64,000 nt of DNA, taken from the NCBI GenBank assembly GCA_034401795.1, contig CM067367.1, positions 56,052,206 to 56,116,205 on the forward strand. Reading direction: 5' to 3'. The DNA is from Chaetoderma sp. LZ-2023a (taxonomy: Eukaryota > Mollusca > Caudofoveata > Chaetodermatida > Chaetodermatidae). The notes beneath the pieces were generated by a model that saw only the letters and a list, made by a program, of their open reading frames with translations, searched no databases and had not been told where the DNA came from. Positions 4,305 to 62,865 of the stretch are shown piece after piece (within the stretch, counting starts at the first letter, position 1; each line of letters opens with the position of its first letter). A program made the translations under genes and the position numbers.

Positions 4305-4359
4305 AGGGACTTGAAATACAAAGTTTTAATACTTTAATAGTCCAAACTGGTGATGAAAA

Positions 4360-4510
4360 GCAATTCGTTCTTTATGAATGTCCATCTGCAGGCGAAAGGA
4401 GCTTTTTTTTTTTAAATCTAACTATAATGAATGGCTTTACACTTGAGCCAGTCATTCATGTGAAACATTTTCAAAAATAATTTAACTTTGGCCTGCAAAT
4501 GGATGTTTCC
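4360..4510. repeat. P1 hairpin repeat, diverged copy
   Basis: The arms AATGTCCATCTGCAGGC and GGCCTGCAAATGGATGTT face each other around a TGAATGGCT / AGCCAGTCATTCA centre. It is more diverged than most copies. Confidence 0.6.
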
Positions 4511-4739
4511 AAAGAGCATTGAAGAAGTCATAAAAGAAGCAAACTATATTTGCATATTTAACATATTAATATCAAAATAACACAGGCGAAAACAATATCA
4601 TTAAATTCATAATATTGACAAAAATGTAATTGATCAGAGACAGAAATTTTGTGACTATGTATAATTTCGCTAAAACACCATCCTATGTTAACTGTGTGAT
4701 TAGTGCAAACCCCAGACAATAATTTCAATGAGCAATAGC

Positions 4740-4845: not shown

Positions 4846-4982
4846 AGTTAAACCCCATTGGAATTAGTGTCTGCTGGCTTGCAGCTGACAGAAAGTTGTC
4901 ATCATGACATATTCACGTAACAAATAGATAATCATAAATCTATAAAGCCACTCTACAGTTATCATTGGAAAATCAAATCCTT

Positions 4983-5196
4983 TAACCCTTTAAGCCGTGA
5001 ATTTGTTCAAGAAAATCCATTTTTTCAAAGAAAATGTCAATTTGCAGACCAAGAGAAGCCTATTTTTTAGTATTTACCACTGGAATGACTGGCTCGGTTC
5101 CAGCAGTAAATTTTCAAAAATAGGTTTCTGGTCTGCAAATGGACATTTCTCAAGACCAAAAGCCGTTTTTGGCTGATATGAGTGTTAAAGGGTTAA
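4983..5196. repeat. P1 hairpin repeat, one half of the centre deleted
   Basis: It begins AACCCTTTAA and ends TTAAAGGGTTAA. AATGTCAATTTGCAGACC faces GGTCTGCAAATGGACATT. The usual CGAGCCAGTCATTCC second half of the centre is missing. Confidence 0.8.
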
Positions 5197-5629
5197 CACA
5201 CTAGAGTAAGCAGAGATTGCTCACACTCACCCTCCAGGTCCCGCCACGTTTTCTTTTTAATTTCAGATTTTCTTCTGTTCAAATATGAGCAAAATCAGAT
5301 CAATAGTTTCTAAGATACAGCTATGGGCAGACAGACAGATGGATGGACGGATGGATGAACAGACAGACAGAGAAATCTGACTGCAATATCCTCTTCCTAT
5401 GAAGTTACAGGGTGACTGAGGTGAGGCAACATGGGTAAATGTGAACAAGTGTCATAAGAGAACAAATATAACTGCATAGTTATTTTTGTGGACATGGTAG
5501 TTATCTCCTCTTTTCCCATTAGTAATGCAGAGTACTTTCCCTTTACTTATCTCTAACGCTTGACAGAGAAATGTCAGTGATATAGATCTAAGAGTGAGCG
5601 TTAAACCAGCTAAATTGATCACCTGTCTT

Positions 5630-5836
5630 AACCCTTCAACCCTCGAATTTGTTCAATAAAATTTAAGTTTTCTCATAGAAAATGTCCATTTGCAGAGCAA
5701 GAGACCTGTTTTTGAAAATTTACCACTGGAATGACTGGCTCGGTTATCGAGCCAGTCATTCCAGTGGTAAATTTTCAAAAATAGTCTTCTCTTGATCTGC
5801 AAATGGACATTTTCAAGATCACCGCAGAAGGGTTAA
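5630..5836. repeat. P1 hairpin repeat, well preserved
   Basis: The arms around GACTGGCTCGGTTATCGAGC are near-perfect complements, including AATTTACCACTGGAATGACT and its reverse complement. The outer arms are the Tc/TTTGCAGA..AAGAGA blocks common to the family. Confidence 0.85.
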
Positions 5837-8985: not shown

Positions 8986-8992
8986 AATTCGT

Positions 8993-9780
8993 CAGAGAAT
9001 CCACCTGGAAATGGTGTCCTTAGACGCCCTGCCATGGGGTTCAATATACGACAACCATAACGCTGTTGGGTCTGTCCGCCATTCCTGAGTACGTTGTTTG
9101 TACTGGTTTAATGCTCGGACTGGACACCATGCTTTTGAATTAGGATCATATCTAGTTAAAGCTGGCAAAACAATAGGTTGACCTGGATATTTCAGACTGA
9201 TTTTTTGCCAGGAAATTTATCCTAGGTAGAAACTTAAGGCCTTCCCATGTAACCACAAAATGGTCTGCCTCGGCTGATAAGGCATGAATTTCGCTTTTAC
9301 GCCTAGCCGAGGCCGCAGCAATTAAAAATAGTTTTAAGTGTCAACATTTTGATAGAAATGGAACTAAGTGGTTCAAAAGGCTTATCACCTAGTACCTGGA
9401 GCACTAGAGATAAACTCCAAGACGGAATCACTGGGGGATTCCTTGGTCTTAGATTGCCCATGCCTTTAATTAAAGTATTTAATGTACTTACTTCATCACT
9501 TCCCCTATTAGCCAAGCAAGGGATAACTGTCATTAAAGCTGACTTATAGCCAGCAATAGAGTTAGGCTTGAGGCTATAGGCATCATACAGGTGAGAGGAA
9601 ATCGGCTACTACCTGAATAGATGAATCCATTGGATTAATACATCTTTTTGAGTACCATTCTGCAAATCTGTTGATTTTATAATTATATACTCTGGAGGTT
9701 GACCCCCTTCTGGCTTTTGCCATGAACATGGCTGCTTGCTCAGAAAAGCCCTCCTTAATTCTAGATTCCATGACAACATC
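8993..9780 (-). pseudogene. DIRS tyrosine recombinase (YR) remnant
   Basis: Reading down from about 9780 the frames give a core-binding part (EGFSEQAAMFMAKARRGST, then NRFAEWYSKRCINP). They continue with GSDEVSTLNTLIKGMGNLRP, VPSW-type PSWSLSLVLQVL and EPLSSISIKMLTLKTIF at 9303-9533. The C-terminal piece near 8993-9180 reads AWCPVRALNQYKQRTQEW and WLSYIEPHGRASKDTISRW before a stop. This order matches DIRS/Ngaro recombinases. Frame changes occur between blocks, and I did not find a complete catalytic RHRY set. Confidence 0.75.
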
Positions 9781-10416
9781 TACGCAGTCAATTGGAACAT
9801 TGACGGATTGTTGTGAAGGGCCTTGCCCTGGAAGGTAATATTGTCCATCAGAGGCAGAGGAACCGGATTGCAGACCAGAAGGTCCAGCAGATCCGTATAC
9901 CATGATCGACTTGGCCAATTTGGGGCGATCAGAAGCACTTGGCACTCCTCCTGTCTGATTTTCTGAAGAATTTTTGGAATCAGGATTGCTGGAGGGAATG
10001 CGTATGCATACATTCCCACCCAGCTGATAGCTAACGCATCTGTTGCAATAGCACTCGGATCTGGAATCGGAGAGACGTACGTCGTCATCTTCGCATTCTT
10101 CTTCGTTGCAAATAAATCTATATTGGGTTTCCCCCATTGGTTGAATAGACGATCCACCACACATTGATTTAGTTGCCATTCCGTAGGTAAAACACTCATC
10201 CTTCGGCTCAATGAGTCTGCTAGCAGATTTAACCTTCCCGGAATATGAACTGCTTTCAAGGTAATCCTGTGATCCAGGCACCAGCAAAGGAGCTTCCATG
10301 TCATGTTCCAGGCCCAGGACTACCGCTCGTAATTCCAGTAGATTTATATGTTCTTCTTTTCGTTCGCTGATCATACCGCCAGTCCTGTAAGTGACTATCG
10401 ACATGATCATAAGCAT
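9780..10416 (-). pseudogene. DIRS RNase H and connection domain remnant
   Basis: The RNase H segment reads HINLLELRAVVLGLEHD, then AVHIPGRLNLLADSLSR, the usual C-terminal signature. It is followed by NIDLFATKKNAKMTTYVSP and APNWPSRSWYTDLLDLLV, as in DIRS polyproteins. The block is shifted between two frames near 10304. Its N-terminal portion is separated by an insertion and lies at about 10690-10830. Confidence 0.8.
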
Positions 10417-10419
10417 TAA

Positions 10420-10690
10420 GTGCGTGGATCCATGGTTTATTAGTGCGCTGTGAGGCCTGGAACCTCCGTCTTCAGCACTCGAGGTTTCTGTCAGGGTTAC
10501 CTCACCCTTACCTCCTTTAGTCGCCTCTTACGACACGCAGAGGATACGGAAGGTGTATTCTAAGCCCCACCTACAGGGCAAACCCCATTGTATGAGGAGG
10601 GCCTTTCTACTAGCGGCTACTAGCAACAACTAAATCCGATAAGATAGGATAGATCCACCTCCGCTCTTCGGGCATAAAACACATACTTTG
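10420..10690. mobile_element. SINE-like insertion in the DIRS RNase H domain
   Basis: The RNase H line reads YTDALMDGWGACLEESTISG up to about 10730 and resumes with HINLLELRAV at about 10350. Foreign sequence lies between, including TAGTCGCCTCTTACGACACG and the downstream GTATTCTAAGCCCCACC block. I recall that motif from SINE-type repeats widespread in invertebrate genomes; the family name is not certain. Exact ends and a target duplication were not resolved. Confidence 0.5.
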
Positions 10691-11785
10691 GTTAACCGCC
10701 AACCGTAGCCTAGGCACACACAGTCTGCCTGGTTACAAGTTCTTGCGACTGATCGAGATTCCAAAGCCCTGATATTGTGGATTCTTCCAGGCAAGCTCCC
10801 CACCCATCCATCAATGCATCTGTATACCGTTAACTGAGGGTGAGGTGGGGGTTAGCATCACCCCCGCCAGGAGATTCTCTGTCTTCAACCACCATTACAG
10901 GTGGTGAATTAGAGGCTCCAGCACTGACACATCTGAGTCCAGTGAAGCGGTACTCTGGGTCCATTGAGTCATGAGAACTAGCTGGATCGGCCGCCTGCGT
11001 AAGGCTGCCTGAGGAATGACTGGTTCCAGAGAAACCATCAACCGCAGCATTCTCAGGTAAACCTGTGCCAGGACATGATGACTGTTGCACACTGACTGTA
11101 TTAATGAGATGAGTACTTGTACCCTCTCCTGAGTAGGATAAACATATCCTATCTTCAGATCGAAGAACATTCCCAGGAAAACAAACTTCTGGGATGGAGT
11201 CAGCTCTGATTTTTGAAAATTGATTATCCAGCCCAAGTCTGTGAGAGTTTTCAAAACTATCTCCAGATTTGCTGATAAACTTTCCTGATTGTGTGCTTTT
11301 AACAGCCAGTCGTCGATGTACGTGTGGACTGCTATGCTTCTCCTGCGGAGGTATGCAGTTATCGCAAGAACTACTCTGGTGAAGGCCCGAGGAGCCGTAG
11401 AAATTCTGAAGGCTAAAATCCTGAATTCCCACTGTCTGCCCTGGAATGCGAACCTGAGGAACCGACGAAAACTCCTCGCTATTGGAATGTGGAAATAAGC
11501 ATCCTTCAAATCTATTGAAGACGTCCACATTCCCTTCTCCAACCCTGCCAACACCGATTTCACTGTCTCCATTTAGAACCTGGGTGTGTCTATGAACTTG
11601 TTCAATGGTTTGAAGTTGAGAATTGGTCTCCACCCTCCAGTGCTCTTCGTTACTAGGAACACGGTTGAATAGACCGGGCACTTTTGTGCCGGTTGAATTG
11701 CTCCTTTTAGTATGAGGGAATTTATTTCCTCCTCTATACACAACCGTTGATCTGGATCTCTTGGAATTTGAGTCCAGACTGGCAC
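10690..11785 (-). pseudogene. DIRS reverse transcriptase remnant
   Basis: The N-terminal finger region at 11573-11785 reads EEEINSLILKGAIQPAQ and STGGWRPILNFKPLNKFI. It continues, after a frame break, at 10895-11572 with SSIDLKDAYFHIPIARSFRR (motif A), AFRISTAPRAFTRV and HTYIDDWLLKA. The last is the catalytic YIDD box. GWIINFQKSELTPSQKFVFLGM follows, as expected for motifs D and E. The thumb end reads WWLKTENLLAGV near 10880. The domain order and LKDAY/YIDD motifs fit DIRS reverse transcriptases. Confidence 0.88.
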
Positions 11786-12012
11786 CAGAGACAGTCACGA
11801 TGGTGGGCCTGATATCCAGTCGGGATGATATCCGACTGAAAACCTTCGCAAGACTAAACGGTCCTGAGTCAACCGTCACCACTCTTGCATGTGGTTGGCC
11901 AATCGGCCTCCTACTGGTCCACCTAGGGAGAGGAGGACATAAGAAGCACAAGAGTGGCACTGTCTCTTGGTGCAGATGCACTGAAGTGGCCCTTATTGTG
12001 GTAACCGACCCT

Positions 12013-12900
12013 TTAGGTACGATTACTATGACCAGATCCTTGAGCGCCACGGCCCGCACCGCGCGCACGGCTGCCTGGCTCGCTGTGCCGGAGGAGCCTG
12101 CACGTCCCCCCACCCTCACTGCTGGCCGAAGCATGCGCGGCCGTGGCCGGCGCTGCGCTGGCCTCTGACCTGGCCACCACCACCTCGAGCCTGCAGGGGA
12201 TGATATGCAGGGGGAGCAGCGCGAACGCGCACTCTGCGGAGCACTTCAAATTGCTCGTGCAACGCCCTCTGGTTACTGACCAGAGTAACTGTCTCTTGGA
12301 GGCGCTTACATCCCTCACCTCCAGAGACCAGGACCTGTTATAGGCGTATTCAGCAGCCTATTATACAGATCCTGGGACGGGCACAAGTTGTCAAGGGCAA
12401 ACGTGCGCCTCGCCCAGACACTCCTGGTCACCGACCGGGTTAAACAGTCCAGAGCCAAGTTAATTCCATCTTGGATGGCTCTCTGGAGAGTCACCGGACG
12501 AGGCTGGCGCGATGCAGATGCTGTTACTACCCCTGGTAACAGCTGGGAGATGTGCGAGAGCGCTGACAGACGCCTTCGAACTCTCCTCCGCATCGCGCAA
12601 TGCGGTGTTTGCCGAACGCAAAGCGCTCGAGCACAGCGCTCCCGTGTCAGACCGGGACCCTGGCCGCGTATCCTCGCCTAGCACACCGCGATCATCCGTG
12701 CTTGGCTTAGGCACCACACCTTACAATTGATATTGATCAGGTACGATGCAACATTGTTTTGCCACCTCGCAAGGGGCCTTCGCGAGACATCCATGCGCCT
12801 TGATGGACGTCTCTGCCGCTGTAAACATATCAAAAATATGTTCAGCCAGCGGCAGATGGCATAGCGGTAAGTAGGCTTACCTGCCAACCACGGGCACTGG
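12013..12900 (-). pseudogene. DIRS ORF1 (Gag-like) remnant
   Basis: This GC-rich block lies upstream of the reverse transcriptase on the same strand and has overlapping minus-strand frames (12013-12318, 12315-12593, 12460-12717). They are rich in Arg, Ser and Ala, with a DGINLALDCLTRSVTRSVW helix-like stretch. No zinc knuckle is visible. Its position, composition and strand suggest the Gag-like ORF1. Homology was not demonstrable by eye. Confidence 0.5.
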
Positions 12901-13140: not shown

Positions 13141-13350
13141 TTAGGCCTTTAAAACTCAAATTTGTTTCAATTTTCTCATTAAAAATGTCGATTTGCAGAC
13201 CGACAGATTATTTGTGAAAACTTATCATTGGAATGACTGACTTGGCTATCGTGCCAGTCATTCCAATGTTAAATTTTCAAAAAGTCTTAGTCTGCAAATC
13301 GACATTTTCCTATATCACTGCAGAAGCCTTTTTGCCTGGCCTGTGTAAAG
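13141..13350. repeat. P1 hairpin repeat
   Basis: AATGTCGATTTGCAGACC and GTCTGCAAATCGACATTTTC flank the TGACTTGGCTATCGTGCCAG centre. A TIR element (13355-13752) abuts or interrupts its right end. Confidence 0.8.
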
Positions 13351-13752: not shown

Positions 13753-13904
13753 CATGCTTTAATAGTCAGGTCTCAGCAGACATCTCGACAAAAATCTATT
13801 TGCAGATCAATAAAAGGCTATGTTTTAAATTGTACCTTCCATGTAAATTATCTTCACCATGTTGCGACTAAGCGGATAACCCCAGACACTGCCATGAGCT
13901 TCCG

Positions 13905-14000
13905 CAATCCACAGGAACATTTCCAGCACTGGAATGACTGGCTCAATAATCGAGCCAGTCATTCTAGTTGTAAACTATCAAGATAGTCTTTTATTGGATT
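13905..14000. repeat. P1 hairpin repeat, partial
   Basis: Only the centre, ACTGGAATGACTGGCTCAAT and its facing arm, plus a short part of the outer arm is preserved. Confidence 0.7.
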
Positions 14001-14094
14001 GTTTTCAATTTTCCTGACAAATCTTGAGCAATAAACGGGTAAAGAGGCATGACCAAGTGGTGCCCAAGTGCCTTTCATATGCCAACTGATAGGT

Positions 14095-14302
14095 CTTCTG
14101 GAGTGACCTTGAGAAATGTTGATTTGCAAACCAAGAGAATACCTTTCAAGACAGACTTATAACTGGAATGACTGGTTCAATAAGCGAGCCAGTGTCATTC
14201 TAGTGAGTTTTTTCAAAAATAATATTTTCATGATCTGCAAATGGACATTTTCTAAGAAAAAATTGAAATTTTCTTCAACAAATTTGAGGATTAAAGCGGT
14301 TA
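14095..14302. repeat. P1 hairpin repeat
   Basis: GAGAAATGTTGATTTGCAAA faces TCTGCAAATGGACATTTTC around a GACTGGTTCAATAAGCGAGC centre. Confidence 0.8.
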
Positions 14303-14630: not shown

Positions 14631-16287
14631 CACCTGTGCAAAAGTTAAGCACCAGCAAAAACAATAGAACGTAGAAACATGATGGTACAACTAGGCTGCC
14701 ATACTTTTTGTCCCCGCGTTAGCTGACATAATTCCAAGTACGAAATGCACATGCATGCATGACTTCACGCCGCTTGATGTCCTTGCGTGGCGGGAAACAG
14801 CACACGTGTTCAGTTATGTAAAAGTCCAGTTTGAGGTGTAGAACATTACATACAGATTTAGGCGACAAGATTAGGAATTTTGTGTTCATGACCGTGGTTT
14901 ATTTGTACAGAGAGAATTAGCTCTTGATTGTGAACCGCTATGGCAAGACGAAGGTTAAGTGATCGTGTGAAATGGCAAATCATAGGCATGCATACCACTG
15001 GTATGTCATGCAGAGAGATTGGCAGACAGATGAACATTAACCATACTGTAATCAGTCATTTGATTGCAAAACATGGGCAAACTAACGAGGTGAAGGACAG
15101 GCCTAGATCTGGAAGACCGAAGAAGACTACTGCCCGTGATGATCGAGCCCTAGTACGCCTTGTTAGGAGATCTCCATTCACCAACAGCAGAGTGCTCAGC
15201 CAGCAATGGGAAACGCGCAATAGAGTGTCAATGTCTACCGTCAAAAGGAGACTGTATGCTGTTGGCATGAAAGCTAGGAGACCTGTCAGACGTCCTCTCC
15301 TCACTCCACACCACAAAGAGGAGCATCTGAGGTGGTGCAACGAAAGAAGACACTGGAACATGAGATCCTGGAGACGGGTACACTGGTCCGATGAAAGTCG
15401 GTTCCTGCTTCATGCCACAGATGGTCGAACTCGTGTATGGAGGTCCAGACGCACGGCGTACGACCAACGTAACATCATGGAAGAAGTTCCATTTGGTGGA
15501 GGTTCCGTTATGATATGGGGGTGCATCTCATTTGATTGTAAGCTGGGTCTGTTGACTGTACCTGGAACACTAAATGGACAAAGATATCAAGATTCCATAC
15601 TGGATAGAGTTGTGGTCCCTCATTTTGTAAATCATGCACCTGGAACACACCCTATATTCATGGATGACAACGCCCGACCACATCGTGCTAGAGCTGTGCA
15701 TGAATACCTCCGCCAGAATGCCATCGAAACCCTACCATGGCCAGCAAGGAGCCCTGACATGAACCCTATTGAGCATATCTGGGACATTCTGGGAAACATG
15801 GTGAGAAGGAGGGATCCTCCTGTGCAGAACCTACAGGAATTAACAGACGCACTCCATCTTGAATGGCAACGAATACCACAATGGCGTATCAGTCGGTTGG
15901 TGACCAGCATGAGACGTCGTGTCCAGGCTGTCATCCAGGCACAAGGTGGATATACCCGGTATTAATAATGACAGTCTCAAACTCGTGCACAGATGTTAAA
16001 CTTCGTTTTCAGACACCATTAATGACAATCTAGGCACGTGTGTCAACTGTAGGGCAATAGTTGTCAGTTGTGTCAACGTAACCATATTCAGGCCTCGTTT
16101 TCAAGTTCAAACAAAAACATACAGTGTTTCCCCACCATCATAATCAGCATTCCTCTAGTTGCATTATTACCTCTTGCACTAAGATGGATGGGTACATAAA
16201 TGTTTATGCTATTGCTTTCTTCATAGCACATGAATATACCCTCGCATGTGCGTAAAAATAGGGTGGTGCTTAACTTTTGCACAGGTG
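14631..16287 (+). mobile_element. Intact Tc1/mariner transposon, copy 1
   Basis: The element is 1657 bp, flanked by TA on each side, and has terminal inverted repeats CACCTGTGCAAAAGTTAAGC / GCTTAACTTTTGCACAGGTG. It carries one uninterrupted transposase gene on the plus strand. A copy of exactly the same length sits inverted at 25308-26964. An intact frame plus preserved termini suggests recent activity. Confidence 0.95.
14940..15965 (+). CDS. Tc1 transposase, complete, copy 1
   Basis: The frame encodes 341 residues, the usual length for Tc1 transposases (about 340). Residues 1-50 form a first helix-turn-helix (RLSDRVKWQIIGMHTTGMS, REIGRQMNINHTVISHLIAK). A GRPKK AT-hook-like link (about residue 58) and a second helix-turn-helix through residue ~115 follow. 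The catalytic triad is the Asp in HWSDESRFLL, the second Asp of MDDNARPHRA and the Glu of SPDMNPIEHIWD. There are 34 residues between the last two, so this is DD34E. The GGGSVMIWGCIS motif is the usual Gly-rich block. The enzyme cuts and pastes the element at TA sites in the nucleus. The ATG follows about 300 bases of untranslated leader after the TIR. No internal stop is present, so it may still be functional. Confidence 0.95.
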   Translation: MARRRLSDRVKWQIIGMHTTGMSCREIGRQMNINHTVISHLIAKHGQTNEVKDRPRSGRPKKTTARDDRALVRLVRRSPFTNSRVLSQQWETRNRVSMSTVKRRLYAVGMKARRPVRRPLLTPHHKEEHLRWCNERRHWNMRSWRRVHWSDESRFLLHATDGRTRVWRSRRTAYDQRNIMEEVPFGGGSVMIWGCISFDCKLGLLTVPGTLNGQRYQDSILDRVVVPHFVNHAPGTHPIFMDDNARPHRARAVHEYLRQNAIETLPWPARSPDMNPIEHIWDILGNMVRRRDPPVQNLQELTDALHLEWQRIPQWRISRLVTSMRRRVQAVIQAQGGYTRY

Positions 16288-16379
16288 TATATATGTGTTA
16301 AAGACACTTGGCACAAGAAATTTCTGTGGCTTCGACATTGTGATACAATAAGGTTTTGTGGTCAGATTTAGGAAACAAA

Positions 16380-16540
16380 ATACTTTCTCATAGAAAATGT
16401 CTGTTTGCTGACCATGAGAAGACTATTTATGAATGTTTACCATTTGAATGAATGGCTCTTTCAGCGAGCCGGTCATTTGAGTGGTGAATTTTCAAATATA
16501 TTCTTTTGGTCTTCTATTAGGCATTTTTCAAGACTAATGC
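16380..16540. repeat. P1 hairpin repeat
   Basis: AAAATGTCTGTTTGCTGACC is the left arm. The centre is AATGGCTCTTTCAGCGAGCC and the right arm is diverged. Confidence 0.65.
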
Positions 16541-16564
16541 ATTTTTGATTTCTTGACCATTATC

Positions 16565-16797
16565 CTTTAGCCCTCATATCAGCCAAAAATGGCTTCTGCA
16601 GTGGTCTTGAGAAATGCCCATTTACAGACCATGGAGAGTATTTTTGAAAATTTACCACTGGAATGACGGGCTCGATAACCAAGCCAGTCATTCTAGTGGT
16701 AAATTTTCAAAAATACTCTTCTCTTGGTCTGCAAATTGACATTCTCTATAAGAAAATTGAAATTTTCTTGAATAAATTCAATGGTTAAAGGGTTAAC
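16565..16797. repeat. P1 hairpin repeat, well preserved
   Basis: It ends in TTAAAGGGTTAA. GCCCATTTACAGACCATGG faces TTGGTCTGCAAATTGACATT, with an ACGGGCTCGATAACCAAGCC centre. It lies directly next to the copy at 16380-16540. Confidence 0.85.
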
Positions 16798-18904: not shown

Positions 18905-19883
18905 ATCTGGATTGGCTAGTCTGTTTTTTTGACAGTGATTCCTTTAATTTCCTTACCATTACGATATAATGTTGCACATTAGTATTACGATGTGAGGTAA
19001 CACTATCATTATTACGTCTCATTTTATTTCTTTACTCATATTATATTATCATGATATGATATGATATCAGGCAAAATGTGCGCAAACCGGTCAATTATTT
19101 GACTGAAAATGGCGGGATTTTTAGTTCCACTACAGGGACAGACAGGTCTTGGTTGGTCTCGGAATCAATCTGTAAAGCCGTCTAGTAAATATGGCACATA
19201 GAGGCTCATTAGCCGATTACTGAGTCATGTTTACCTGTCTAATGTGCATGTCAAGATCTGCTGACTAGATGAGGACAATGTTTGGAGGAGAGAATTAGGA
19301 GTTTGCCAGTAAACAGTAAGAAAACTTGTAATATTAATGACTAGTTGCCCAAAACAGACACCCAATTGTCGCGCTATAGCGCTGGAATCTGTTAGTATTG
19401 ATTATTTTAGTATGGCATATCAACTGTAAATGAAGAGTATTAGTTTTTAGTAGAATTCTGTGGAATTAAATGTATTATCACAGCACAGGGTTGGATTTCA
19501 TAAAGCCTTTATCTGCTCTTACCTTGGTCGTGATGTTTTGCTAAATGCAAAACATTAATAGTAATACTAATTAAGGAAGACCAGATTTACATGCTTAGCG
19601 TGTTAATATTTGTACATAAACACATATACATAAGGAGTATAGCTTCCAGTTCCATATCATTCATTTCCTGCCCACGGAAGCAACAGCTAACAGGCAAATT
19701 TCAAAATATTCAACAGCTTACGTGTATGGTTGAATGAGATTATTTTCCCTTTAACTCTTTCAGCAAGTAAATTAGCCTATTTTGGGATTTTTTTAGCCAA
19801 CCGTGAAACTTATTCTCAAAAACGAATTGGTGAGTGGGTGAGTTGGTAGATCCGTTGTCCCTGCCTACAATAGTTAGTTATTT
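18905..19883. other. No recognised gene or repeat
   Basis: AT-rich sequence with only short frames. A degenerate P2-like ATTCAACAGCTTACGTGTA arm occurs near 19710. Nothing else is supported. Confidence 0.4.
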
Positions 19884-20118
19884 TAACCCTTTAACACTTA
19901 AATTTGTTCAAGAAAATTTCAATATTCTCATAAATGTACATTTACAGACCAAGAGCAAACTATTTTTGAAAATTCACCACTGGAATGACTGGCTCGGTTA
20001 TCGAGCCAGTCATTCCAGTGGTAAACTTTCAAAAATAGTCTTCTCTTGGTCTGCAAATGGACATTTCTTAAGACCACTGCAGAAGCCATTTTTGGCTGAT
20101 ATGAGAGTTAATGGGTTA
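19884..20118. repeat. P1 hairpin repeat, near consensus
   Basis: It begins AACCCTTTAACACTTAAAT and ends GAGTTAATGGGTTAA. The arms around GACTGGCTCGGTTATCGAGC are almost perfectly complementary for about 60 bases. This is one of the best copies for deriving a consensus. Confidence 0.9.
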
Positions 20119-20141
20119 ATATTAAGATCAGAATATTAATA

Positions 20142-20404
20142 TTAACCCATTAACGGTCAAGGCGACCTAAACCGACCTCTGCAGTTCTCTTTGGGAATGA
20201 CACTTTTCTGGCCAAGAAAACTGTTTTTGAAAATAAGTTACACTGGAATGACTGGCTCACTAAGCAAGCCAGTCACGCGTAAGCAAGCCGGTCATTTTAG
20301 TGATAAATTTTCAAAAATATTCTCTTCGCCTGTAAATGGACGTCCACTGAGTGACAATTTCAATACTCTTGGGCAAATTTTAGTTATTTTACAATTAAAG
20401 GGAT
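20142..20404. repeat. P1 hairpin repeat, next to the previous copy
   Basis: It begins TTAACCCATTAACGGTC. The centre TGACTGGCTCACTAAGCAAGC is followed by a short duplication of GTAAGCAAGCC. It is separated from the previous copy only by an AT dyad rich in TTAATATTAA. Confidence 0.8.
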
Positions 20405-21439: not shown

Positions 21440-21690
21440 TTATCAGTCTAAAGCTAATAGCCATTGAGGGTGCTTCCAATAGACAGATCTACTTCTAGCT
21501 ATGCCCAGCCCATTTCTAGCTAAGCTCCTCCCACTTTTTGTATACATTTGAATTGATTTTAACACCTTGAACTCTGAATTCCAAGAATCCCAATTTCAAT
21601 GTAAGCTGTTGAATTTTATTAATCTAATTTTACTGAGGACTGTTACTGACTATCGCAGTTACTGCCTAACTGTGTATTTAGTTTCAAAAT
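21440..21690. repeat. P2-long element, diverged copy
   Basis: It contains AGCTATGCCCAGCCCATTTC and TAGCTAAGCTCCTCCCAC, then a P2 palindrome-like TTGAATTTTATTAATCTAAT facing GTTTCAAAATATTCAG. The same module order recurs at 35.1 and 57.1 kb. Confidence 0.55.
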
Positions 21691-21790
21691 ATTCAGTTCA
21701 CCCGATTGATAATTGAAATTCATCAAGGTCGTCAGGAAGATTGTAGAGCTGGCTGCTTGGTGATGATTATCAGGACTCATTATAGTTATT

Positions 21791-22009
21791 TTAACCCTCT
21801 AGAGGTCAAGATTGCTCAAGTACTTGCCTTGTCAATGTCCAGACCAATAAAAATTATTTTTGGAAAATTTATGACTGGAATGGCTAGCTGGATCATCGAG
21901 CCAGTCATTCCAGTGGTAAATTTCCAAAAATGATCTCTTGGCCTGCAAATCGACATCTCTTAAGACCATCCCAAAGGGCCGGCTTCAACATTAAGGTCGA
22001 CGGGTTAAC
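21791..22009. repeat. P1 hairpin repeat
   Basis: It begins AACCCTCTAGAGG and ends GACGGGTTAA. The centre is AATGGCTAGCTGGATCATCG facing CGAGCCAGTCATTCCAG. Confidence 0.8.
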
Positions 22010-22502: not shown

Positions 22503-57705
<35,203 letters not shown>

Positions 57706-61385: not shown

Positions 61386-62865
61386 AAAATAAGGAGAGTC
61401 AATTTGATCTAACAAAAAATCGGAAGTTGACTAACCTGACGGGGGGGCCCGGGGGGCCCTCACCCGGAAAATTTTTAAATCTAGTTGCTCTCAGAGGCCA
61501 TCTCCTGCATTTCTGGAGAAAAATATAGGTTTTCGGTTGGCTGTGAAATTGTTCTATTTTTACCCATTTTGTCCTGAAAAAGTCAAATAGACGAAGACAT
61601 TTTCATGAGAAAATGAATAAAGATAGAACAATTTCATAGTCAACTGTAGGACCCAGAAAATGAGGACTTAACCACTTATACTCGGTCCTCCATTTAGCAA
61701 GGGTTGCCCCTTTGGGCACTTTTTGCTCAGATGCCATTTTAGCAACACATCAACTGCTGTCACAGTCATGTACAATTAAATTTAAAAATTTTTTCACTTT
61801 AGAACACATTAGTCAAAGAAGGCTTGTGATAGTTTTCCTGATAAATGTTCACTTGCAGGTCGAGATTATTTTTGAAATTTTCCATTGAAATGGCTTATTC
61901 AGTAACTGAGACAGTCATTCCTGTGGTAAATTTTCAAAAATAATCTCTTGACCTGCAAATGGCCATTAACTATTTTTAATTAAAAATTTTAGGCAAATTC
62001 GACCATTAAATGGTTAATTGTAGAACGCGAATATAATGGTAACGCGCGTGTTGTCAAGTGTCTTCTACAGCGCGATTATTTATGAACTTGCTTTCTTCAC
62101 TTCTATTGTGAGAAAACTCGCCCGCTATTTCATTGGTTTTCTATATACAGCTACCAAGGAAATCGCGAGGAAGAATTAGCTTCTTCAGTATCGAAGGCGT
62201 GAAAGAACGCGTCTCAAACTTCTGTGAAAATCTCTCACGTAATGTCATTGGATTTTCTAGATATAATTATGTCCAACAACCAATGAAATTGCGAGACCAA
62301 ATTCTCTTCTCATGACAGAAGGTGTGTAAGAACACATCACTAACAATTGCGCAGTGGCAGATTTTGTAGATCCGCCATTGCTAATTTTTCATCGACTCGA
62401 TCATTTTCAGACTAGCGAAATGACAAGATTTTGAGTGGTATCATTTATCAGATGTTCTATGCAATTTTATCTGTCATTTATTCGCCGTATGACTTAATTT
62501 TCAAGTCACTCACAGTCTATATCCCTCATTAGAAATCAGAAAATTCGCCAGTATAAAGGGTTTACACTATTCCCGGGACAATTAGCTATTGTAAGACCAC
62601 CCTCTAGGATGAATTTGCCGGTATGACGCGTTTTGACAGATCACGAATACTGGTAACCAAGGTGAATATCGTTTTCACTTAGAAATGTGCAAATGACGCA
62701 CAAACGCGCGCTCGATCGATCTATCGTATTTGAGTGCGATACCAACATTGTTCACTTGTTCTCTTTTTCCAAAATTTGCATATTTTCCCCAAAATTCATG
62801 TTCAGTAAAAGATTTTTACCCAATCCAGATTTGATCGGACATGACCGATGTCCGACCATTACTTC
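61386..62865. other. About 1.5 kb inserted between the two parts of the Tc1 relic
   Basis: The sequence is AT-rich and non-coding. It contains a G/C run GACGGGGGGGCCCGGGGGGC at about 61439 and one P1 hairpin. Neither terminal repeats nor a target duplication were resolved. Confidence 0.6.
61835..62015. repeat. P1 hairpin repeat
   Basis: AATGTTCACTTGCAGGTCGA faces TTGACCTGCAAATGGCCATT around ATGGCTTATTCAGTAACTGA. It lies inside the insertion in the Tc1 relic. Confidence 0.75.

Follow-up and report, generated by a model that had tools for sequence, protein, structure and literature searches.

What kind of element gives rise to an abundant, hairpin-forming repeat in the Chaetoderma genome, why its hairpin is kept, and why its copies lie beside exons are the questions raised by a 64-kb stretch of contig C9 (64,000 nucleotides, hereafter the window) in this genome of 2.44 Gb. 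The copy of the repeat, P1, that was singled out in the original prediction at 19884-20118 was recovered as the same copy, but its true span was one base wider on each side, 19883-20119 (+ strand), running from TTAA to TTAA. Its start is TTAACCCTTTAA as predicted, while its end is TTAATGGGTTAA, one base off the predicted TTAAAGGGTTAA. The layout is TTAA-CCCTTTAAC...GTTAAAGGG-TTAA over ~237 bp, with the target-site duplications at 19883-19886 and 20116-20119, and a palindromic core composed of a left arm (19932-19996, +; 65 bp in the consensus), the loop GTTAT (19997-20001) and a right arm (20002-20066, +). The RNA fold of this copy reached -110 kcal/mol (z = -15.9), which was equaled by 0 of 200 shuffles, and its DNA fold gave z = -16.0; the near-complete hairpin that had been predicted is thus upheld.

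A consensus was derived from 39 genome copies (40 fetched, with L014 removed as a duplicate contig), whose divergence from it of 3.7-9.1% (mean 6.6%) applies to copies chosen by similarity to the window copy. It opens with TTAA and CCCTTTAACNCT; an unpaired spacer on the left leads to the first 65-bp arm, the GTTAT loop and the second arm, and a spacer on the right leads to AGNGTTAAAGGG and the closing TTAA. The two arms form a perfect palindrome flanking the loop. Inside single copies the arms are mostly imperfect by now through decay, and the loop sequence ATAAC, which marks an inverted core, appeared in 1 of 84 rows. Short (~237 bp), without coding capacity and of high copy number, P1 is a MITE.

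Searching the window with the 39-copy profile identified 27 P1 places covering 4,782 bp (7.4% of bases), and the same profile gave no match in 10 dinucleotide shuffles of the window; consistently, the tip motif with ≤1 mismatch was found 27 times on both strands vs. 0.46 expected. The claim of an abundant repeat with at least 23 copies in 64 kb was therefore confirmed. Outside the SAMHD1 region treated below, profile matches to P1 copies lie on the plus strand at 4327-4533 (subfamily B by its ends), 4982-5196, 5628-5831, 13143-13345, 16379-16558 (a core without recognized ends) and 21791-21976, and on the minus strand at 14072-14298, 16562-16796, 20142-20384 and 61805-62017, the last two belonging to subfamily B; fragments were matched at 13769-13836 (-) and 13924-14028 (+). 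Neighboring copies were separated by ≤100 bp in 5 of the 26 gaps. The window further carries two very similar 343-residue open frames with the Tc1/mariner-type domains HTH_Tnp_Tc3_2 and DDE_3 (14934-15965, +, and 25630-26661, -), a reverse-transcriptase region in a run of long minus-strand frames (8992-12245, -, with RVT_1 in the frame 10895-11572), and a 170-residue open frame with a cysteine-rich C-terminal part (538-1050, +) that had no Pfam match at E 0.001.

Genome-wide abundance was evaluated in 28 random stretches taken at round coordinates, 61 kb altogether. Nine P1 copies were present in 6 of them and made up 2.9% of bases; P1 density in the window is ~3-fold that of random stretches. 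Densities near transposases were left out of account, as transposons themselves fill a good part of the sequence there. Extrapolated from this 61-kb sample, the genome would hold ~360,000 P1 copies, with a Poisson 95% range of 165,000-683,000.

Which transposon class the repeat belongs to was assessed on a de-duplicated pool of 126 P1 places, 51 of them with both ends recognizable. TTAA was kept at the left end in 34/51 copies, at the right end in 34/51 and at both in 23/51. Repeats in the flanks directly beyond TTAA showed no excess at lengths of 1 and 2 bp (13 and 3 copies vs. 13.8 and 3.7 expected), and those of 3 and 4 bp numbered 2 and 2 vs. 1.0 and 0.3 expected. Joining the flanks of 49 insertions gave four sites with junction-spanning related repeats and 18 hits; a clean single TTAA was seen in two hits, one for L017 and one for the window copy at 56765, and the other 16 carry another four bases or a gap at the junction. 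For L017, the related repeat copy without P1 that has the single TTAA lies in the window itself (21486-21695). TTAA target choice, at which the original prediction had hinted, is thus borne out by the copy ends and by single-TTAA relatives at 2 of 4 sites; the 16 hits without a clean junction and the 3- and 4-bp flank repeats count against it.

Both piggyBac and Kolobok transposons use TTAA, so the termini were compared. The terminal inverted repeats of the P1 consensus, CCCTTTAACNCT / AGNGTTAAAGGG, start with CC[C/T]T, which is the piggyBac terminal motif according to the available part of a coral study (PMC2872659). Kolobok elements are reported from molluscs and other animals, and a Kolobok-type MITE would also have TTAA ends like those of P1; however, Kolobok termini are given as 5′-RR and YY-3′ in the available part of its description (PMC9587614), while those of P1 are 5′-CC and GG-3′. 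On these ends a Kolobok origin was rejected, and we regard it as highly improbable. Because of TTAA plus the 5′-CCCTTTAA terminus, P1 was grouped with piggyBac, not with Kolobok. A bacterial or viral carrier of the P1 core was also rejected: neither the tip pattern nor a 20-base arm pattern had any match in viral contigs, and the two arm-pattern matches in genome contigs were both single arms without the palindrome, where the profile covers 20-odd bases only and ~0.5 chance matches were estimated in 257 Gb.

The original prediction knew of no transposase source for P1. This part did not stand as to the class, as piggyBac genes are plentiful, with at least 119 genomic matches to PF13843 (piggyBac transposase) after scoring of 116 out of 427 first-look candidates; therefore, a class of transposase source for P1 exists. 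It stood as to a specific partner, in that no autonomous element bounded by P1 ends turned up in ~38 distinct transposase loci of the 119 listed, whose flanks reached ~1.5-2.5 kb, so that far element ends may be missed. These loci come from 40 fetched: L079 covers L077 a second time, and L060 and L061 are apparently a single locus present on two contigs. Several of them have open frames together with TTAA-flanked inverted repeats. They carry the piggyBac transposase domain and share with P1 the TTAA target; those with both ends found measure ~2.7-3.1 kb, and their ends differ from those of P1: many loci end in TTAACACGTTGACTGCC, several of them with open frames, one has TTAACCCTTATCCTGC, and three show TTAACCCTTAGCACTCGG at one end. 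Strong matches to the P1 end profile occurred in a few transposase loci and look like separate inserted P1 copies or fragments; matches weaker than E = 0.1 were left out of interpretation. At L053, L054, L055, L064 and L070, ~2.9-kb piggyBac elements have near-perfect TTAACACGTTGACTGCC ends and a stop-free matched transposase domain, which suggests recent piggyBac activity in this genome. L057 and L058 belong to further piggyBac subfamilies, whose TTAACCC ends are distinct, and therefore several piggyBac lineages coexist.

The P1 hairpin is kept unusually well for a piggyBac-type MITE. Subfamilies were assigned by the ends alone to A (52 copies), B (12) or neither (13), and the A and B consensuses differ at 20/104 end positions vs. 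3/135 core positions (p = 9e-6), although at some positions the B consensus base is backed by about half of ≤12 copies. With the end positions that define the assignment removed, the contrast was 9/80 vs. 3/135 (p = 0.01). Two of the three core differences form one complementary pair, and the B consensus has a single arm mismatch, at the outermost pair. In the 2,839 usable pairwise comparisons among 77 copies, divergence was 17.5% in the core and 26.9% in the non-terminal ends, and the 41 copies that had not been picked by similarity gave 0.15 for the core vs. 0.23-0.28 for the ends; this conservation of core over ends may be partly ascertainment, because the search profile includes the core.

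Changes in the two arms were then counted by pair in 87 de-duplicated cores, 14 loci (L001, L007, L009-L015, L048, L061, L077, L099 and L100) having been dropped as duplicate or foreign. Double changes numbered 150 (shuffles 69.0 ± 6.7, maximum 88 of 500), and 96 of the 150 were complementary (shuffles 33.7 ± 4.9, maximum 51 of 500), with 45 distinct complementary types vs. 21.8 in shuffles (maximum 32); these shuffle controls ignore the relatedness of the copies. At the true partner, 28.7 double changes per 1000 cells were found vs. 13.0-18.5 at 30 slides of 1-15 positions each way. Similar results were obtained when 77 whole-core copies were aligned with MAFFT (nine of the 86 available, outside 190-260 bp, having been dropped): 86 cells had changed on both sides vs. 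28.5 in shuffles (reached by 0/500) and 41-67 in slides, and the covariation score was 0.099 vs. 0.074, with 0.029-0.046 in slides. The number of pairs with a both-side change showed no excess over slid controls in this set: the true partner gave 33, slide +2 gave 38 and slide +3 gave 33. As the complementary paired changes exceed chance, the two P1 arms have changed non-independently.

Sorted by variant frequency, paired cells amounted to 97 vs. 26.3 expected for variants in ≥8 copies, 62 vs. 16.9 for those in 4-7 copies, 29 vs. 7.8 for those in 2-3 copies and 4 vs. 1.8 for single-copy variants, and the paired fraction was 97/283 cells in frequent variants and 4/97 in single-copy ones. Since the excess was ~3.7-fold in all three classes of shared variants vs. 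2.2-fold in single-copy variants (four cells), the frequencies argue weakly for pairing before insertion; the pattern fits pairing in source elements. The paired changes could instead be a neutral by-product of replication, with polymerase template switching or conversion rewriting one arm from the other; such arm-to-arm copying is a strong rival account, whose probability we put at about one in three. It agrees with the high share of exact complements (96/150) without an RNA bias, with the slight over-pairing of single-copy variants, and with copies whose changes are mostly paired, such as the window copy at 56765-56990 (6 paired, 0 non-complementary double and 3 one-sided changes in the core). 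However, it leaves the conservation of core over ends unexplained, both within the family (0.15 vs. 0.23-0.28) and between the subfamilies (3/135 vs. 20/104), and in two copies with six paired changes each the pairs are scattered over the arm and do not lie in tracts.

The second feature of P1 is its position relative to genes. SAMHD1 lies on the minus strand of the window (one of its exons matched a PDB entry at E = 9e-25), and its 10 kept exon matches span 28691-57699 (-); the tblastn hits at 11160 (E 0.82), 38221 (E 1.4) and, on the plus strand, 17093 (E 4.2) were excluded. Fourteen P1 places fall at 28,000-58,200. Copies near an exon match were found by profile at 28403-28619 (+, 72 bp from the match), 48578-48786 (-, 13-14 bp), 52789-52982 (+, 65-67 bp) and 56765-56990 (-, 173 bp), together with a lone left end at 53855-53908 (-, 59 bp), a copy at 32148-32294 (+, 25 bp, or 7 bp by a second profile) and a P1 part at 42655-42729 (+, with a left-end match at 42608-42650). 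The other seven, by profile, are copies at 30010-30168 (+), 32799-33009 (+), 34090-34264 (-), 42732-42924 (+) and 51367-51544 (+), a core at 52258-52399 (+) and a fragment at 54582-54660 (-). P1 was within 200 bp of 7/10 recognizable exons vs. 2.0 expected, a count reached by 1.2% of 3,000 circular shifts and by 0/5,000 independent placements, and by 6/10 exons when cut flanks were used. This agrees with the original prediction that copies in SAMHD1 introns lie close to exons.

Because that closeness had been a remark of the original prediction itself, fresh exons of myosin genes were tested. Twelve of 65 myosin-head matches from ~10 gene regions were hand-picked among those of ≤200 bp before the flanks were seen, not strictly by rank, and 8 of the 12 had P1 within 200 bp, which brings the two gene families to 14/22 exons (cut flanks). 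Pseudo-exons placed at overlapping positions in the 28 random stretches had P1 nearby in 354/8,706 cases (4.1%) under a rule of ≥30 bp of P1 in the flank, slightly unlike the profile match used on cut exon flanks. Even at a per-exon rate of 30%, which roughly allows for dense genic DNA, 8/12 gave p = 0.009. Under one rule for all 200-bp flanks, P1 was present in 10/22 downstream, 5/22 upstream and 4/122 random flanks, and the myosin flanks alone gave 9/24 vs. 4/122 (p = 1e-5); the difference between downstream and upstream was not significant (p = 0.20). All 10 downstream copies begin 7-72 bp from the exon match, the edges being those of the protein match and not of the transcript. P1 copies are concentrated beside exons, for these 22 exons of two gene families.

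Other short repeats, some hairpin-like by eye, also adjoin exons downstream and recur at different exons, for example in the flanks of L119 and window 57502, of L122 and L125, and of L126 and window 52579. Flanks hitting at least two other places of the pool, which is biased to genic DNA, numbered 17/22 downstream, 8/22 upstream and 20/122 random. As these repeats share the habit, lying close to exons is probably not a peculiarity of P1. Their presence is also what a survivor effect would produce, in which large elements dilute P1 within deep introns and between genes and are purged near exons so that small ones remain, and we give this account an even chance. In the 80 bp directly upstream of exons repeat coverage was 0.03-0.12, whereas downstream of them it was high, a pattern that selection on splice signals would produce. 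Against it stand the size of the myosin excess and the tight 7-72 bp start of all downstream copies, and the near-exon copies are not clearly older, with 82.3% identity to the nearer consensus vs. 79.7% for random pieces.

Covarying arms and a position beside 14/22 exons, where pre-mRNA would include the copies, could also be read as signs of a structured RNA whose hairpin is kept because its transcript acts, be it microRNA-like, as dsRNA or as an exon-side splicing element. We consider this unlikely: no Rfam family reached its gathering score when covariance models were run on the window, most core variation in the 87 cores is one-sided, one-sided transitions gave G.U vs. A.C in 189 vs. 192 cases and thus no preference for G.U, and P1 copies occur in both orientations.

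We conclude that P1 is, with good probability, a non-autonomous piggyBac-type MITE whose core is kept for propagation at the DNA level and which is concentrated beside the exons examined. As judged from its ends, a piggyBac-family transposase acting in trans would excise P1 at the CCCTTTAA... ends and paste it into TTAA, which becomes duplicated. Paired arm changes may have arisen in the source elements, and the core may be kept as a propagation aid, e.g., a transposase-bound or cruciform-forming spacer that unites the ends, with arm-to-arm copying possibly assisting its upkeep; the many one-sided changes would represent ordinary decay after insertion. Domains of the piggyBat transposase recognize imperfect palindromes near the transposon ends, according to the available part of that work (PMC11707139), and by this analogy a palindromic binding platform is plausible for P1. 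Exon closeness may result from preferred insertion in open gene chromatin combined with tolerance of small inserts near exons.

P1 is of the known piggyBac-type MITE kind, and its closest known system is the CMITE families of Acropora corals (Wang et al., 2010; PMC2872659). As far as the available part of that report goes, both have TTAA duplications and piggyBac transposases in the host genome, one CMITE family has CCCTTTAA-type ends, the internal region is better kept than the terminal repeats between CMITE families, as it is between the P1 subfamilies (3/135 vs. 20/104), and tandem arrays and one copy in a presumed intron resemble P1. In contrast, CMITEs are ~100 bp and their internal region of 75 bases is not presented there as a hairpin, while P1 is ~237 bp with a core that is a 65-bp-arm palindrome with paired changes; CMITEs number ~1,600 in A. 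millepora vs. ~360,000 for P1, and P1 is concentrated beside the tested exons. Kolobok and KolobokP share the TTAA-specific insertion, but the 5′-RR termini of the former and the long terminal direct repeats of the latter, as given in the available part of their description, are both unlike P1 (PMC9587614). MITEs have been described from Blepharisma as well (PMC9942856, available part). Among the matches listed in the open-licence literature, no title concerned a covarying MITE palindrome or MITEs crowding exon edges.

A bolder reading, to which we give a low probability, is that selection acts on the core as a structural part, which is perfected anew whenever a subfamily succeeds, and that a large proportion of exons have the MITE, placed or retained there, within tens of bases of their 5′ splice side. 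If true, near-identical hairpins would fold during transcription next to exons, in their hundreds of thousands, and could affect this animal's splicing, RNA editing or dsRNA sensing. MITEs are usually regarded as passive debris defined by their ends. Between the P1 subfamilies it is the ends that changed; the palindromic middle was retained and its arms covaried, which makes the role of a MITE interior, an old question, testable. The crowding of hairpins at exon sides offers a naturally occurring setting in which to ask whether such hairpins of transposons affect splicing or the dsRNA load.
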